Shown in pieces: positions 39,046-54,332 of a stretch of 64,000 nucleotides of DNA (the first letter of the stretch is position 1; every line of letters starts with the position of its first letter). The position numbers and the translations under genes are program-made. The notes below the pieces were generated by a model, which was not told where the DNA came from, ran no database searches, and saw only the letters and a program-made list of their open reading frames with translations. This stretch comes from Methanobrevibacter sp. (lineage in GTDB: Archaea > Methanobacteriota > Methanobacteria > Methanobacteriales > Methanobacteriaceae). The stretch is from positions 62,001-126,000 of the forward strand of contig JAFRFB010000097.1 in NCBI GenBank assembly GCA_017434555.1, in the 5' to 3' direction.

Positions 39046-40521
39046 TTAGAAGTATTTGCCACCATCAAAATCAGTTTTTGGTTTTATGCCTTGTTTAGAG
39101 ACTCTATAATAGTAGTCATAATCGCCTTCTTTATATTCTGCAGAATTAGAAGTATAGTTTCCTTCTTCATTGAATTGAGAATAATAGGCAGAATATGGAA
39201 CATTATATTGGTCACGTAAAGTTTTATTACCAAAAGAGATTGTTTGGTCGTCATTATAACCGAAACCAGATAATGACATATATTCTTTTTCAACAAGCCA
39301 TTCATTAGTGTATTCAACACCCCAAACTTCTGGATTAAAACCAGTTGTTATATCTTCTGGGTCTAAATACATTGGTTTATAACCAATAACATCACCTTTC
39401 TTGACATGTTGTTCATTTATAATACAGTCAGCAGATGCATAAATTGGGCGTGTGTGCAAGATTGGTTTATCTCCACTAACTGTTTCTGTAGCAGGAATCC
39501 AAATATTTGTTACTTTTGTAAGAAGCTTTGCATCTTCTTCATAAGTAGTCAATTCATCAGTTTCCCTATAATCATAAGTTGTTATGTATGCAGAAGTTTT
39601 TATTCCTTTATATTCATACGGGACAAATTCAGTCTTTGGATTACCGTTTAATACATAGGTTGGACCAACCTTAGTTTGATAAATCTTACTAAATTCATAA
39701 GGAGTAGTTAAAGAACCGTCTTTATTACCGAATGTTGCAGCATGATAAAGATAATCTCCTTTATTTAAAGTAATATAGGTATTAATCTTTTCAATAATCT
39801 GTGCATCTTTAATCGGCTTATAAAGGAATGCTTCCAAAGTAAATGTAAACGAAACCTTGATTTGTCTCCAGTCTTCTTCACCCATAGATTCACTTTGAAT
39901 TTCCCAATTCATAGTGTCAAGTTTCATCTTGATACTTCTACGTTTATTGAAGAACCAGAATTCCTTGACATCAAAGAATGCTGCTGGCTGGAATCTTACA
40001 GCGATTTGTTCGACAATCTGTTCAGCATCTGTCATTTTTTCACAGTTTGCTTCCATTGAAACAGAAATATTATATGGAACCGGTTGGACATCAGACCAGA
40101 ACTTATCTTGCTGGTCACATACCAAACCTGCTCTTTCCAAATCAGAATTATAGAATGCACGAGTTTCATAAATACCCTTTGCTCTTTCAGTAGCAAATTG
40201 CATAGAATCAAGTCTATAAGCAAGATTTGGTAAACTGATATAATATTTGTTACCAGATTCTTGTTCGGTTCTAAAGTCATGAGACTTGTTTCTTGGACCG
40301 AATTTAATAGGAACATTGATTGTTTTGACTGGTTCTCCAAACTTATTATAACGAATAACTTTCAATTCGTTAAAGAAATTTTCGAACCCGATGAACAGAC
40401 TACGTATTGTGTCTGCATAGAAATAATTTTGTGGATAACCGAAATTAGGAGCTCCATCAGCAGTTCCTTTCCAATATCCATGTAAACTTGGGTCATACCC
40501 TTCTTGTGTATAATTTGCCAT
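39046..40521 (-). CDS. 15: Tail sheath stabiliser/completion protein gp15
   Basis: 491 aa (T4 gp15 is 272 aa). The N-terminus, FYADTIRSLFIGFENFFNEL followed by KVIRYNKFGEPVKTINVPIK, parallels T4 gp15 (YFYNSSFRRY..LMGDLFSNIQIKR....IRVPI). Later blocks, LPNLAYRLDSMQF, PVPYNISVSM and ADAEQIVEQIAVRFQPAAF-like sequence, also follow it. gp15 hexamers cap the tail and join it to the neck. The C-terminal 200 residues are an extension not present in T4. Leaderless-type promoter 5 bases before the ATG. Confidence 0.8.
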   Translation of the reverse strand: MANYTQEGYDPSLHGYWKGTADGAPNFGYPQNYFYADTIRSLFIGFENFFNELKVIRYNKFGEPVKTINVPIKFGPRNKSHDFRTEQESGNKYYISLPNLAYRLDSMQFATERAKGIYETRAFYNSDLERAGLVCDQQDKFWSDVQPVPYNISVSMEANCEKMTDAEQIVEQIAVRFQPAAFFDVKEFWFFNKRRSIKMKLDTMNWEIQSESMGEEDWRQIKVSFTFTLEAFLYKPIKDAQIIEKINTYITLNKGDYLYHAATFGNKDGSLTTPYEFSKIYQTKVGPTYVLNGNPKTEFVPYEYKGIKTSAYITTYDYRETDELTTYEEDAKLLTKVTNIWIPATETVSGDKPILHTRPIYASADCIINEQHVKKGDVIGYKPMYLDPEDITTGFNPEVWGVEYTNEWLVEKEYMSLSGFGYNDDQTISFGNKTLRDQYNVPYSAYYSQFNEEGNYTSNSAEYKEGDYDYYYRVSKQGIKPKTDFDGGKYF

Positions 40522-40537: not shown

Positions 40538-40545
40538 TATAAATA
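40538..40545 (+). promoter_or_regulatory. Late promoter for terminase large subunit
   Basis: TATAAATA 34 bases before the ATG at 40580; AAGG lies in the leader. Confidence 0.6.
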
Positions 40546-40579: not shown

Positions 40580-41500
40580 ATGTGGCAAAAAACTGCAGAA
40601 CTTAGAGGTCATCTCGAAGAAATTGAGATTACCAAAGAACAAATGGACGAATATGTAAAATGTTCTAAGGACATTTTTTATTTTTCTAAATATTTTTATA
40701 TTTTGAGCGACGAAGGTGAAATTCCTATTAAACTCAGAGAATACCAAGACAGAATTGTAAAAATGCTTGTTGCAAAGTATTATGACAAGAATAATGATAT
40801 TAGAAATAACAGAATCATTATGATGGGTCGTCAGTGTGGTAAGACTACTATTGCAACTCTTTATATTCTTTGGTATGCATTATTTAACAATGACAAGACT
40901 ATTGCTGTTCTTGCTAACAAGGAAGACCAAGCAAAAGAAATTATGCTTCGTATTCGTTCCGCTATTTTGAAACTTCCACTTTGGTTACAACAGGGAATTA
41001 ATCCTGATAGAGGTGGTTGGTCAAAAGAAAGTATCGGTTTTGATAACGGAACTAAGATATTCTGCGCTGCTTCTGGTTCTTCTGCTATTAGAGGTAAATC
41101 CGTTGACTTGATGCTTGTCGACGAATTTGCGTTCTTGCCTGAAGAAGAAGCTAAAGACTTCATTAAGTCTGTTTTCCCTACCCAATCTGGTAGAAAGGAT
41201 GCTATGATGATTCTTATTTCTACACCGCATGGTATGAATGAATTTTATAACATCTGGATGAAAGCTATTTCTGGTGCAAGTTCTTATGTTCCTGCTAAGA
41301 TTCAATGGTATGAAATTCCTGGAAGAGATGAAGCTTGGAAGAAGAGAATGATTCGAGACTTCGGTATTCAGATGTTCCAACAGGAATATGCTTGTTTAAC
41401 TGGAGAACATAAAATAACAGTTCGATCCGAAGAAGGAATCGAACTAACAGAACCGATTTCAAAACTATATGAACTTTGGATGGACGGTTTCTTAAGATAA
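40580..41500 (+). CDS. 17: Terminase large subunit gp17, N-terminal ATPase half fused to split-intein N-fragment
   Basis: 306 aa against about 610 in T4. Residues 1-271 are the packaging ATPase: Walker A GRQCGKTT (83-90), Walker B LMLVDEFAF (177-185), motif III STPHG (214-218) and the following IQMFQQEYA block. At Cys272 the sequence changes to CLTGEHKITVRSEEGIE..., an intein N-terminus, and stops after 35 residues. The C-terminal nuclease half is absent and the next gene is on the other strand. It should be restored by protein trans-splicing with a C-terminal gene elsewhere. A frameshift is unlikely because a terminator follows directly. Confidence 0.88.
   Translation: MWQKTAELRGHLEEIEITKEQMDEYVKCSKDIFYFSKYFYILSDEGEIPIKLREYQDRIVKMLVAKYYDKNNDIRNNRIIMMGRQCGKTTIATLYILWYALFNNDKTIAVLANKEDQAKEIMLRIRSAILKLPLWLQQGINPDRGGWSKESIGFDNGTKIFCAASGSSAIRGKSVDLMLVDEFAFLPEEEAKDFIKSVFPTQSGRKDAMMILISTPHGMNEFYNIWMKAISGASSYVPAKIQWYEIPGRDEAWKKRMIRDFGIQMFQQEYACLTGEHKITVRSEEGIELTEPISKLYELWMDGFLR
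41393..41497 (+). other. Atypically short split-intein N-fragment (TerL intein)
   Basis: Codons 272-306 of the terminase gene. It begins with Cys and block A-like CLTGEHKITV, then an SEEGIELTEPISKLYEL strand/helix and ends MDGFLR. Usual split inteins have N-parts of about 100 residues; a class of environmental phage terminase inteins (for example AceL-TerL) has N-parts of about 25-35, which this matches. The partner is not in the window. Confidence 0.8.
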
Positions 41501-41533: not shown

Positions 41534-42415
41534 TTATCGATTAAATGGATTTAATAATTTTGTATATTCATTTTTAGGATATTCTATTGATTTACCAGTA
41601 GGATAATCTTTATATTTCATAGTTGGTAAACAGTCAATCCTAGTTCTATTCATCTTTTCATTCCATTCTTCCAATGAACGGTGGTAGTAATGGAAGAGTT
41701 TAATATCAGAATCAGAAACTTTATATTTTACTTTCGTTCCATCAACTTTCGGATTAAATTCTGAATTATTTGGTAATATTATATTATAGTTATTAATAAA
41801 ATGTGGATATGAAAATACTATATTAGAAATCTGTGTTTTAATTGCTGTATGAATAAATGGTTTTATACTAACAAGAACTTCCTTATAATAATCTTCACTA
41901 ACATATTTGCATTCGTCAATCATCGAACTTTGTCTTGTTTCAGGAACACAAGAAGATTCATAAGAAATATTTACTCTTGGAACACCGAATTGATAAATAT
42001 CATTATCATTTAAATGTTTTAAGTAGTCATTTATATTAGAATACTTTGTTTTATCAAACCATAAATATTCGTCATCATCACAGAAAAATTGATAAGTATA
42101 TTTAATATTATTATTTGCAAATCTATTATAAAAATATTGCTGCATATTAAAAAATTTAGATGGCATTTCTATTACGCTAACTTTGTCATTTCCATTAAAT
42201 TTTTCTTGAATATTACAACATGTTGTTCCATTATCTATAATAATATGGTTAAAACCACACCAATTTAAATAATGATCAACCCATGCATCTATATCACATT
42301 CTTTATATGCTTTTGTTACTAAAATAACTTCAGATGTTATTGGTGCATTTTTATCAAAATTTTTTACTTTATAGTAATTTCTATGTTTTCTATCTTTTTC
42401 TAAAAAATCAAGCAT
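41534..42415 (-). CDS. Glycosyltransferase (GT92/GT2-like)
   Basis: 293 aa. The N-terminal half has SEVILVTKAYKECDIDAWVD, HIIIDNGTT and YQFFCDDDEYLWF, with DDD as the likely metal/nucleotide-sugar site, the pattern of GT-A fold enzymes of the GT92-like type (E..Y....EW..YH...G..H). The acceptor may be a virion protein, the phage DNA or host surface; nothing here decides. Codons are very AT-rich. The gene directly follows the 258-aa hypothetical gene with a 10-base gap. No SD evident. Confidence 0.65.
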   Translation of the reverse strand: MLDFLEKDRKHRNYYKVKNFDKNAPITSEVILVTKAYKECDIDAWVDHYLNWCGFNHIIIDNGTTCCNIQEKFNGNDKVSVIEMPSKFFNMQQYFYNRFANNNIKYTYQFFCDDDEYLWFDKTKYSNINDYLKHLNDNDIYQFGVPRVNISYESSCVPETRQSSMIDECKYVSEDYYKEVLVSIKPFIHTAIKTQISNIVFSYPHFINNYNIILPNNSEFNPKVDGTKVKYKVSDSDIKLFHYYHRSLEEWNEKMNRTRIDCLPTMKYKDYPTGKSIEYPKNEYTKLLNPFNR

Positions 42416-51608: not shown

Positions 51609-52622
51609 ATGACAGATATTATTATAGAAAAAAATAATGAAAGTTATGTTCAATTACACTGTAATGAAGAAATAAACCATGAGATAAATAATTTATTTTC
51701 AGCATTTGCGGCCGGCTATCGTTTTAACCCCAGGTATGTCAATAGACTCTGGGATGGCCGGGTTCGTGTTTATTCTCCTATTACACAGTTGCTTCCAATA
51801 GGGTTAGTTTCTAACCTTATGAAGTGGTGTGATACTAAGAAATATACGTATAAAATGGATTTTTTCGATGATTTTACTGATGAAATTGATAAGGATGAAT
51901 TAAGAGAAACTATCAATGGATATGTAAAAAAATTCGATGTAAGAGAATATCAGTTTAAGGCAGTTTATGAAGCATTAACCAATAAGAAAGGTATTTTGCT
52001 TTCTTGTACTGGTTCTGGTAAATCTTTGATGATTTATTGCATTTTCAGATATTTGCTTGAAAAGAAGAAATTGAAGCATTTATTGCTTATTGTTCCTAAT
52101 ACATCGCTCGTAGAACAGATGTATACCGACTTTATTGATTACGGTTGGGATAATATCGAAGATTCTGTTGAACTATTGTATTCTGGTAAGAAACCAACTT
52201 ATAGATTACCAGTTTTGATTTCCACTTGGCAAAGTTTACAGACACAGGATAAGAGTTTCTTCGATAAATATAATGGTATTCTTGTTGATGAATGTGTAAA
52301 TGAAAATACATTAATATTAACACCATCAGGTGAAAAACAGATTAAAGATATTAAACCAGGTGAATTAGTAATAACGTATAATGAAAAAAATAAAATATAT
52401 GAACCTAATAAAGTCTTAGAAGTTCATCAAAATCATATTAGTAGCAGAAATAAAAAAATGTTACGATTAGAATTAGAAGACGGTAAAATATTAGAATTAA
52501 CAGAAAATCATCCAGTTTTTACTACTAATAGAGGTTGGGTAAGAGCTGGAGAGTTAAATGAAAATGATGATATTGAAATTATAAATAATATAGAAACGAG
52601 TGAAGACGGTTCTAAAAAATAA
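51609..52622 (+). CDS. uvsW: UvsW helicase, N-terminal part fused to split-intein N-fragment
   Basis: 337 aa. Residues 1-228 are UvsW: FSAFAAGYRFNPRYVNRLWD and GRVRVYSPITQLLPIGLV in the N-domain, Walker A TGSGKS (134-139), motif Ia LLIVPNTSLVEQM, ISTWQSLQ and motif II start GILVDE. Residues 229-337 are an intein N-part: CVNENTLILTPSGEKQIKDI (block A) and GKILELTENHPVFTTNRGWV (block B with TENH). UvsW is a recombination/fork-regression helicase that also unwinds origin R-loops. The C-terminal part is at 53430. No late promoter; TATATTTG lies 11 bases upstream of the start. Confidence 0.92.
   Translation: MTDIIIEKNNESYVQLHCNEEINHEINNLFSAFAAGYRFNPRYVNRLWDGRVRVYSPITQLLPIGLVSNLMKWCDTKKYTYKMDFFDDFTDEIDKDELRETINGYVKKFDVREYQFKAVYEALTNKKGILLSCTGSGKSLMIYCIFRYLLEKKKLKHLLLIVPNTSLVEQMYTDFIDYGWDNIEDSVELLYSGKKPTYRLPVLISTWQSLQTQDKSFFDKYNGILVDECVNENTLILTPSGEKQIKDIKPGELVITYNEKNKIYEPNKVLEVHQNHISSRNKKMLRLELEDGKILELTENHPVFTTNRGWVRAGELNENDDIEIINNIETSEDGSKK
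52293..52619 (+). other. Split-intein N-fragment within UvsW
   Basis: 109 codons beginning with Cys229 in the DExH motif of UvsW. Blocks A and B are intact; there is no endonuclease domain in the frame. After the stop at 52622 the leader of a free-standing endonuclease gene begins. The partner C-fragment is at 53430-53534. Confidence 0.92.
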
Positions 52623-52709: not shown

Positions 52710-53426
52710 ATGCCAAATAAAATATGTAAATATTGTAATACAGAATTTAATACGTGGCAAGCTAGAGTTGCACATGAAAATTTTTGTAAAGATAATCCAA
52801 ATAAATTAGAAAGTTATTTAACTACATATAGAAAAGAACATTCAGCTTGGAATAAAGGATTAAAAGGAAAAAGTGGTGTTCATGGCTGGTGTTATGGAAA
52901 AAATAAAGATAATGATGAAAGATTAATGAAGTTATCTTTAGAAAGAATGGGTGATAATAATCCAAGTTCTTATAAAAATAGACCAGATAGAAGTTTAGAT
53001 ATTAAAAAACAATCAGAAACAATGAAAAGAAAAATTTTGGATGGAACCTTTACACCAAATACTGAAAATAGATTATGTCATAAATTATTTGTATATGATA
53101 ATAAAAAATTTAGAAGTAGTTGGGAAGTTGTTTTTTATTATTTTCATAAAGATTTTGAGTATGAAACAAAAAGAATTAAATATACATTAAATAATAAAGA
53201 ACATATTTATATATCAGATTTTTATGATCCTATAACAAATACAATTTATGAAATTAAACCTGATAGAATGATGTATAATATACAAAAAGAAAAATATGAA
53301 ATAATTAAAAACGAATGTATAAATCAAGGATATAATTTTATTCATTGTGGTGATACTTGGAAAAATTCTATTATTTTAGAAAATACAGATATTAATGAAG
53401 AAATTATAAAAAAGTTTAATAATTAA
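52710..53426 (+). CDS. Homing endonuclease between UvsW halves, PD-(D/E)xK type
   Basis: 238 aa. N-terminal zinc finger CKYCNTEFNTWQARVAHENFC, then a NUMOD3-like stretch (HSAWNKGLKGKSG), a central basic region, and the nuclease core SSWEVVFYYF, then EHIYISDFYDP and IYEIKPD (D...ExK). It sits exactly where the split intein is opened and carries no intein part of its own, so it presumably cuts intein-less uvsW alleles and spreads the whole cassette. This is the arrangement called fractured genes in environmental phage DNA (split intein plus free-standing endonuclease). AGGAG at a good distance from the ATG. Confidence 0.8.
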   Translation: MPNKICKYCNTEFNTWQARVAHENFCKDNPNKLESYLTTYRKEHSAWNKGLKGKSGVHGWCYGKNKDNDERLMKLSLERMGDNNPSSYKNRPDRSLDIKKQSETMKRKILDGTFTPNTENRLCHKLFVYDNKKFRSSWEVVFYYFHKDFEYETKRIKYTLNNKEHIYISDFYDPITNTIYEIKPDRMMYNIQKEKYEIIKNECINQGYNFIHCGDTWKNSIILENTDINEEIIKKFNN

Positions 53427-53429
53427 ATT

Positions 53430-53534
53430 ATGAAAATTAAAAAAATTACAGAAATAGAAAAACCAGAAATTGTATATAATCTTTCAGTAGAAAATAATGA
53501 AAATTATATTGCAAATGGAATAGTAGTGCATAAT
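53430..53534 (+). other. Split-intein C-fragment within UvsW
   Basis: 35 codons with the sequence pattern YNLSVENNENYIANGIVVHN before Cys. Size and pattern fit canonical split-intein C-parts; together with the N-fragment (109 aa) the intein is about 144 aa, a mini-intein. Confidence 0.92.
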
Positions 53535-54332
53535 TGTCAGCAGTCAAAAGCAAACGTTCTTTCTAAAATTTTGAAAGCTTCATTCAATGCAGAATATAAG
53601 ATAGGAACTACTGGTACTTTACCTAAGGAATTATCTGACCAGTTGGTTATTAATTCTGTTATTGGTAACGTTATTTTCGAATTGAAATCCTCTCAGCTTA
53701 TCGATGAAGGATATTTGGCTAAAATGTCTGTTGCTGGTATTTTCTTAAAATATCCAGATGAATTTATTGCAGAAAATAAGAATAGAACATATCAAGAAGA
53801 AGTAAAGATGGTCGAGGAATATGAGAATAGAAATGATGTTCTCAAGTTTATTATTGACCATTCGAAACCTACTGACAATATGCTCGTTTTATTAACTCAT
53901 AAAGCACATTTACAGTCTACTATTGAGTATTTGAAGAAGTTATATCCTGATAGAAATGTAAGCGAAATTAGTGGTGATATTAAGACTAAGACTAGAGAAA
54001 ATATTAGAACTGGAATTGAAAATGAAGAAGGTTCGATAATTGTTGCTACTTATAAAACTATGGCAGCAGGTGTCAATATTCCGAAATTACACAGTGTCGT
54101 TCTTTATTCTAATAGTAAATCCAGAATCCAAGTTTTACAGTCTATTGGTAGAGGATTGAGACTTCATAAGACTAAAAATAAGGTCATTATTTACGATATT
54201 ATTGACGATTTAAGTTATAAAACAAGAACTGGAAAAACCAAGAAAAATTATTGTATGCAACATTACGATGAAAGATTGGAGTTCTATAAAGAACAGAATT
54301 TCCCGGTAATTACGATAAATCGCAACATTTAA
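53430..54332 (+). CDS. uvsW: UvsW helicase, C-terminal part preceded by split-intein C-fragment
   Basis: 300 aa. Residues 1-35 (KIKKITEIEKPEIVYNLSVE, then NNENYIANGIVVHN) are an intein C-part with block F and the terminal HN. Cys36 is the +1 nucleophile and starts the C-extein CQQSKANVLSKILKASF. Extein motifs: GTTGTLPKE (motif III), LVLLTHKAHLQSTI (IV), SIIVATYKTMAAGVNIPKL (V) and SIGRGLRLHKTKNKV (VI). Spliced, UvsW would be about 493 aa (T4: 503) with motif II DECQ. The start is 4 bases after the endonuclease stop, no clear SD, likely coupled. Confidence 0.92.
   Translation: MKIKKITEIEKPEIVYNLSVENNENYIANGIVVHNCQQSKANVLSKILKASFNAEYKIGTTGTLPKELSDQLVINSVIGNVIFELKSSQLIDEGYLAKMSVAGIFLKYPDEFIAENKNRTYQEEVKMVEEYENRNDVLKFIIDHSKPTDNMLVLLTHKAHLQSTIEYLKKLYPDRNVSEISGDIKTKTRENIRTGIENEEGSIIVATYKTMAAGVNIPKLHSVVLYSNSKSRIQVLQSIGRGLRLHKTKNKVIIYDIIDDLSYKTRTGKTKKNYCMQHYDERLEFYKEQNFPVITINRNI

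Follow-up and report, generated by a model that had tools for sequence, protein, structure and literature searches.

A terminase large subunit gene split at an atypical intein into two distant halves in a jumbo phage lineage

The two halves of the terminase gene

We analyzed a stretch of 64,000 nucleotides (the window) that corresponds to positions 62001-126000 of contig JAFRFB010000097.1 (C134; 172,971 bp), part of a bin of 146 contigs assigned to Methanobrevibacter. The ends of the contig do not overlap exactly, and the sequence is thus not a closed one. The gene of interest is an open reading frame (ORF) at 40580-41500 of the forward strand, which encodes a protein of 306 amino acids (aa) that begins as a phage terminase large subunit (TerL) and ends as the N-terminal fragment of a split intein. 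T4 gp17 (PDB 3ezk) was matched over residues 16-249 (E = 9.9e-37) and the Pfam family Terminase_6N over residues 79-275 (3e-21), and this part of the protein carries the Walker A, Walker B and coupling motifs of the ATPase of T4-type TerL proteins. In tblastn searches the alignments of TerL proteins from cultured T4-like phages to the window ORF break off exactly at residue 272, where an intein-like tail of 35 residues begins (CLTGEHKITVRSEEGIELTEPISKLYELWMDGFLR, residues 272-306). With its 35 residues and Cys1, the tail has the properties of the N-fragments (IntN) of atypical TerL split inteins, which comprise about 25-37 residues and start with Cys or Ser. The gene for the tail sheath stabiliser gp15 is a divergent neighbour, and gp15 also lies upstream of the terminase genes in cultured T4-like phages with linked TerL halves. 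The features are listed in Table 1.

To locate the nuclease half, the whole assembly was searched with the TerL nuclease family. A single Terminase_6C match was found on C134 (C134:43764-44237, minus strand), outside the window. The match lies in an ORF of 351 aa (C134:43626-44681, minus strand) that is 57.9 kb away from the N-half and on the opposite strand, while TerL-type matches elsewhere in the bin (contigs C21, C49, C52, C111) represent separate loci. The first 101 residues of this partner form an intein C-fragment (IntC) that ends with TTNGIIHHN and is followed by CSFIGSSNTLISG, which corresponds to the stretch of T4 gp17 that lies between the ATPase and the nuclease; the junction is HHN/C with a Cys at position +1. 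The first ~104 residues match CatC, the engineered consensus of the atypical TerL inteins (6dsl_B; phmmer 5.7e-5, profile 9.9e-15). IntC thus combines the length (about 100-115 residues), CatC homology, terminal Asn and Cys+1 of this intein type, and the kinship to AceL-TerL suggested in the initial annotation is thereby supported. The remainder matches the T4 gp17 nuclease (1.8e-20) and PF17289 (9e-13), and the RNase H-like nuclease with its catalytic acids that is found in T4-type TerL proteins is therefore encoded by this second gene. The acids D152, E210 and D296/D297 are invariant across 17 relatives, as are H38, N101 and C102. An AlphaFold model of the C-half (mean predicted local distance difference test score, pLDDT, 82) matched the gp17 nucleases of T4 and RB49 (E = 3e-18 and 1e-15; target template-modelling score, TMt, 0.88 for RB49) as well as the VidaL and gp41-1 inteins. 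The initial annotation had read the window gene as a TerL with all ATPase motifs that switches at Cys272 to an intein-like tail and is directly followed by a terminator and an opposite-strand gene; it had seen no TerL nuclease gene in the window and had placed elsewhere an intein C-part of about 100 residues ending in HN and fused to a TerL nuclease. Each of these points was borne out.

Table 1. Features in the window (window coordinates), and spacing of the TerL halves in related contigs
Feature	Position or spacing	Strand	Support or remark
Tail sheath stabiliser (T4 gp15)	39046..40521	-	Pfam T4-gp15_tss 2.3e-34
T4-type late promoter-like box TATAAATA	40538..40545	+	42 nt upstream of N-half start codon
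TerL N-half extein, T4 gp17-type ATPase domain, residues 1-271	40580..41392	+	Walker A GRQCGKTT, Walker B LMLVDEF, motif III STPHG
IntN, 35 aa, Cys272 = Cys1, block A, ending ...LYELWMDGFLR	41393..41497	+	Sequence and length kept in 19 N-half loci
Terminator-like hairpin, 11 bp, directly after stop codon	41505..41530	.	
Opposite-strand gene beyond the hairpin	41534..42415	-	
UvsW helicase N-half; intein N-part from Walker B VDE/C	51609..52622	+	Pfam UvsW_N 1.3e-16, ResIII 3.2e-16, Intein_splicing
Endonuclease-like gene between UvsW halves	52710..53426	+	phrog_15427 endonuclease 6e-18
UvsW helicase C-half; 35-aa intein C-part (...NGIVVHN/C)	53430..54332	+	Pfam Intein_splicing 3.4e-8 (residues 2-35), Helicase_C 3e-12
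TerL halves in G001 (415,750 bp)	58.6 kb apart	opposite	
TerL halves in G002 (424,163 bp)	53.4 kb apart	same	
TerL halves in G003	45.3 kb apart	opposite	
TerL halves in G006 (291 kb)	58.5 kb apart	opposite	
TerL halves in G009 (411 kb)	58.5 kb apart	opposite	
TerL halves in G017	57.9 kb apart	opposite	

Conservation of the separated halves

A scan of GTDB returned a single locus, in a contig binned as Methanobrevibacter, which gave no basis for a host assignment. A phage contig with this bin label (L186, JAFQXD010000042.1; 191 kb) encodes a C-half that is identical over the 147 aa compared, and its placement in Methanobrevibacter probably reflects the misbinning of a T4-like phage. The metagenomic loci came from IMG/VR, where 19 N-half loci were found (14 complete, 86-99% identical, and 5 cut at a contig edge), all of which end at the same place, so that the early end of the gene is not accidental. 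The close C-half loci numbered 14, one of them cut at a contig edge, and a wider profile raised the number to 50; no contiguous TerL was present among the 14 close C-half and 19 N-half loci. In six other contigs, three of them of 411-424 kb, the halves lie 45-59 kb apart, on opposite strands in five cases and on the same strand in one (Table 1). One of the six, G017, is probably the same phage as that of the window. A further lineage, represented by G010 and two shorter contigs, carries its halves side by side in divergent (head-to-head) orientation, with 107 bp between them in G010. The carriers of the split TerL with unlinked halves are a family of giant gut phages. G001 and G002 each contain one intein-tagged N-half and one nuclease half above threshold. 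The initial annotation had set two outcomes against its own proposal, a full-length terL elsewhere and an assembly break; no full-length TerL was found in G001 or G002, and other assemblies show the same separation.

The ratio of nonsynonymous to synonymous substitution rates (dN/dS) between diverged loci, where computable and with several comparisons saturated at synonymous sites, was about 0.08-0.13 for IntN and 0.05-0.10 for IntC, which is as low as for the exteins. Judging from these ratios, both intein pieces are under purifying selection. The box TATAAATA, which we take to be the T4 late-promoter box, precedes not only the N-half but also the C-half gene (at -41), and it is kept upstream of most N- and C-halves even though the surrounding sequence has diverged. 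On C134 it occurs 91 times, whereas a first-order Markov model predicts about 40 occurrences. Downstream of the C-half, at a distance of a few genes, there is a late-sigma-like gene (phrog_234, 4e-5).

Two side observations concern the N-half and its relatives. Firstly, an endonuclease-like gene lies directly upstream of terL-N in G001 (L042:9028-10035), and the first ~400 nt of this terL-N share no more than 72-85% identity with the window, compared with 95-100% for the remainder; the diverged 5' part is likely a co-conversion tract left by homing. Secondly, an ATPase-only TerL homologue with neither intein nor nuclease occurs as a conserved gene in the large relatives G001, G002, G006 and G009 (L060:1315-2091, L061:1342-2268, L184:1492-2283, L185). 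This homologue is absent from C134, which seems to span only part of the phage.

Predicted trans-splicing and its alternatives

Based on these data, we are very confident that the window gene encodes the N-half of a T4-type TerL with an atypical IntN of the AceL/GOS/Cat-TerL type, and that trans-splicing would join this 306-aa protein with its unlinked partner into one motor. Both genes appear to be late genes driven by T4-like TATAAATA promoters. Their products would then meet, and the intein pieces of 35 and 101 aa would fold into one Hint domain. Class-1 protein trans-splicing (Cys1, terminal Asn, Cys+1) would join ...QQEYA to CSFIGSS..., and the product would be a single ATPase-nuclease packaging motor with the junction peptide ...QQEYACSFIGSS...

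Some points weigh against this conclusion. The 35-aa N-fragment alone gave no match in searches against the PDB, for which it is too short to score. The TATAAATA boxes appear to be late promoters by their resemblance to T4, and the N-half of G001, upstream of which the endonuclease gene is inserted, has no such box within 100 nt. Since the contigs of 415-424 kb are not proven complete, a full-length TerL could be hidden outside them. Finally, splicing is a prediction from sequence. This last point leaves room for the alternative that the halves are separate subunits that assemble non-covalently and that the intein pieces are inactive remnants, as protein pairs can in principle stand in for fused domains. 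However, inactive remnants are expected to decay, whereas here the residues required for splicing vary little or not at all and both intein pieces show strong purifying selection, with dN/dS values that resemble those of the exteins, which makes this alternative improbable.

It is still less probable that the stand-alone ATPase paralogue present in the large relatives is the real motor ATPase and the N-half dispensable. The Walker A lysine has been lost from the paralogue of G006 (GITT), whereas the N-half keeps intact motifs under strong purifying selection, and a paralogue that lacks an intein fragment would have no means of becoming linked to the sole nuclease half. Although chimeric phage contigs occur and the window derives from a bin of many contigs, we regard an assembly artefact that split truly adjacent halves as practically negligible, because agreement between assemblies already refutes it: the separation recurs in diverged phages from several data sets (G001, G002, G003, G006, G009, G017), with conserved local neighbours on both sides.

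Relation to known split inteins and origin

The AceL-, GOS- and Cat-TerL inteins have N-fragments of 25, 37 and 30 aa and C-fragments of 104, 115 and 104 aa, respectively (PMC11766414). They share with the present system the TerL host gene, the short N-fragment, the long C-fragment and Cys+1, and in the case of Cat-TerL a detectable homology of the C-fragment (CatC, PDB 6dsl). AceL and GOS are known from environmental sequence, whereas the genome context is seen here. The present halves moreover differ in being far apart, with no endonuclease between them, and in remaining so across a lineage of very large phages. The arrangement represents a version of the known AceL/GOS-TerL split-intein system with dispersed halves and no endonuclease.

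Genes cut by split inteins and accompanied by an intervening homing endonuclease are said to have been described as fractured genes by Dassa et al. in 2009. The UvsW gene of the same phage (51609-54332) is a textbook case, and we confirmed it as an ordinary fractured gene with a conventional split intein. The initial annotation had counted two split inteins in two essential enzymes; the second split intein is indeed present, in a UvsW-type helicase that may or may not be essential. Although the TerL gene is likewise cut by a split intein, its halves are not adjacent, do not form one operon and have other phage genes as neighbours. In cyanobacteria, the halves of the essential DnaE likewise come from widely separated genes and are united through a split intein. 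DnaE is, however, a bacterial chromosomal polymerase split at an ordinary site, whereas here a phage packaging motor is split with an atypically short N-fragment.

Linked forms of the TerL split do exist. Aeromonas phage PX29, Serratia phage 92A1 and Providencia phage PSTRCR_127 carry linked TerL-N, homing endonuclease and TerL-C genes; the PX29 genes 17A and 17B are annotated with an N-intein and a C-intein. The ATPase and nuclease are separated as in the window phage, but the halves are adjacent on the same strand in the T4 order gp15-16-17A-(endonuclease)-17B-18-19. Metagenomic phages also have linked halves with an endonuclease-like gene between them (L101/L102, L104, L108, L112, L122, L126, L127), and L121 has a contiguous (cis) intein at the same TerL site. 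In several environmental phages the endonucleases between linked halves are GIY-YIG-like (L102:9355-9990 and similar). The gene of L098 (L098:9062-11131) joins an endonuclease-like domain in frame to the intein C-fragment and TerL nuclease that follow it, and Vibrio phage Va1 has a similar-looking fusion. In L034 (L034:1461-2465) and L111 (L111:3-899) the N-half gene starts with an intein C-part at Walker A (HN/T) in addition to the split intein at the ATPase-nuclease site, which suggests a three-piece TerL. An additional contiguous intein is present at Walker B in L103. The Walker B inteins of Desulfovibrio phage 7757 and L035-L038 were excluded, as they occupy another insertion site.

Trees were built for the ATPase part, the nuclease part and the intein, and six pairs of halves from the jumbo lineage grouped as a single clade in them (bootstrap 96-100). 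The trees are compatible with the divergent-adjacent state of G010 being either ancestral or derived inside the dispersed clade. Most likely, the dispersed halves arose when a fractured gene with linked parts (TerL-N, homing endonuclease, TerL-C) lost its endonuclease and was later rearranged; endonuclease loss followed by unlinking is the simplest reading.

Split TerL genes and the intein type were already known. For the unlinked, endonuclease-free layout in very large phages, no earlier description turned up in the literature searched, in which subscription literature was incompletely covered and Dassa 2009 lay outside the coverage. The finding gives a whole-genome context to the AceL/Cat-type TerL inteins, which are in use in biotechnology, and adds many natural split-intein pairs of the short-N kind that are new and could serve in protein labelling. 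As TerL is split into distant halves, terL appears truncated or missing in such phage genomes. It is conceivable, albeit unlikely, that the unlinking is not neutral and that the need to trans-splice the products of two late genes under separate control serves as an assembly checkpoint for packaging, in which the conserved ATPase-only paralogue might take part, for instance through mixed motors or by competition with the spliced subunit. The contiguous intein, the linked split with an endonuclease, the adjacent divergent halves and the halves 45-59 kb apart resemble stages of one process. With the halves unlinked and the endonuclease lost, a simple precise excision of the intein would be hard, and the phage therefore seems locked into trans-splicing of an essential enzyme.
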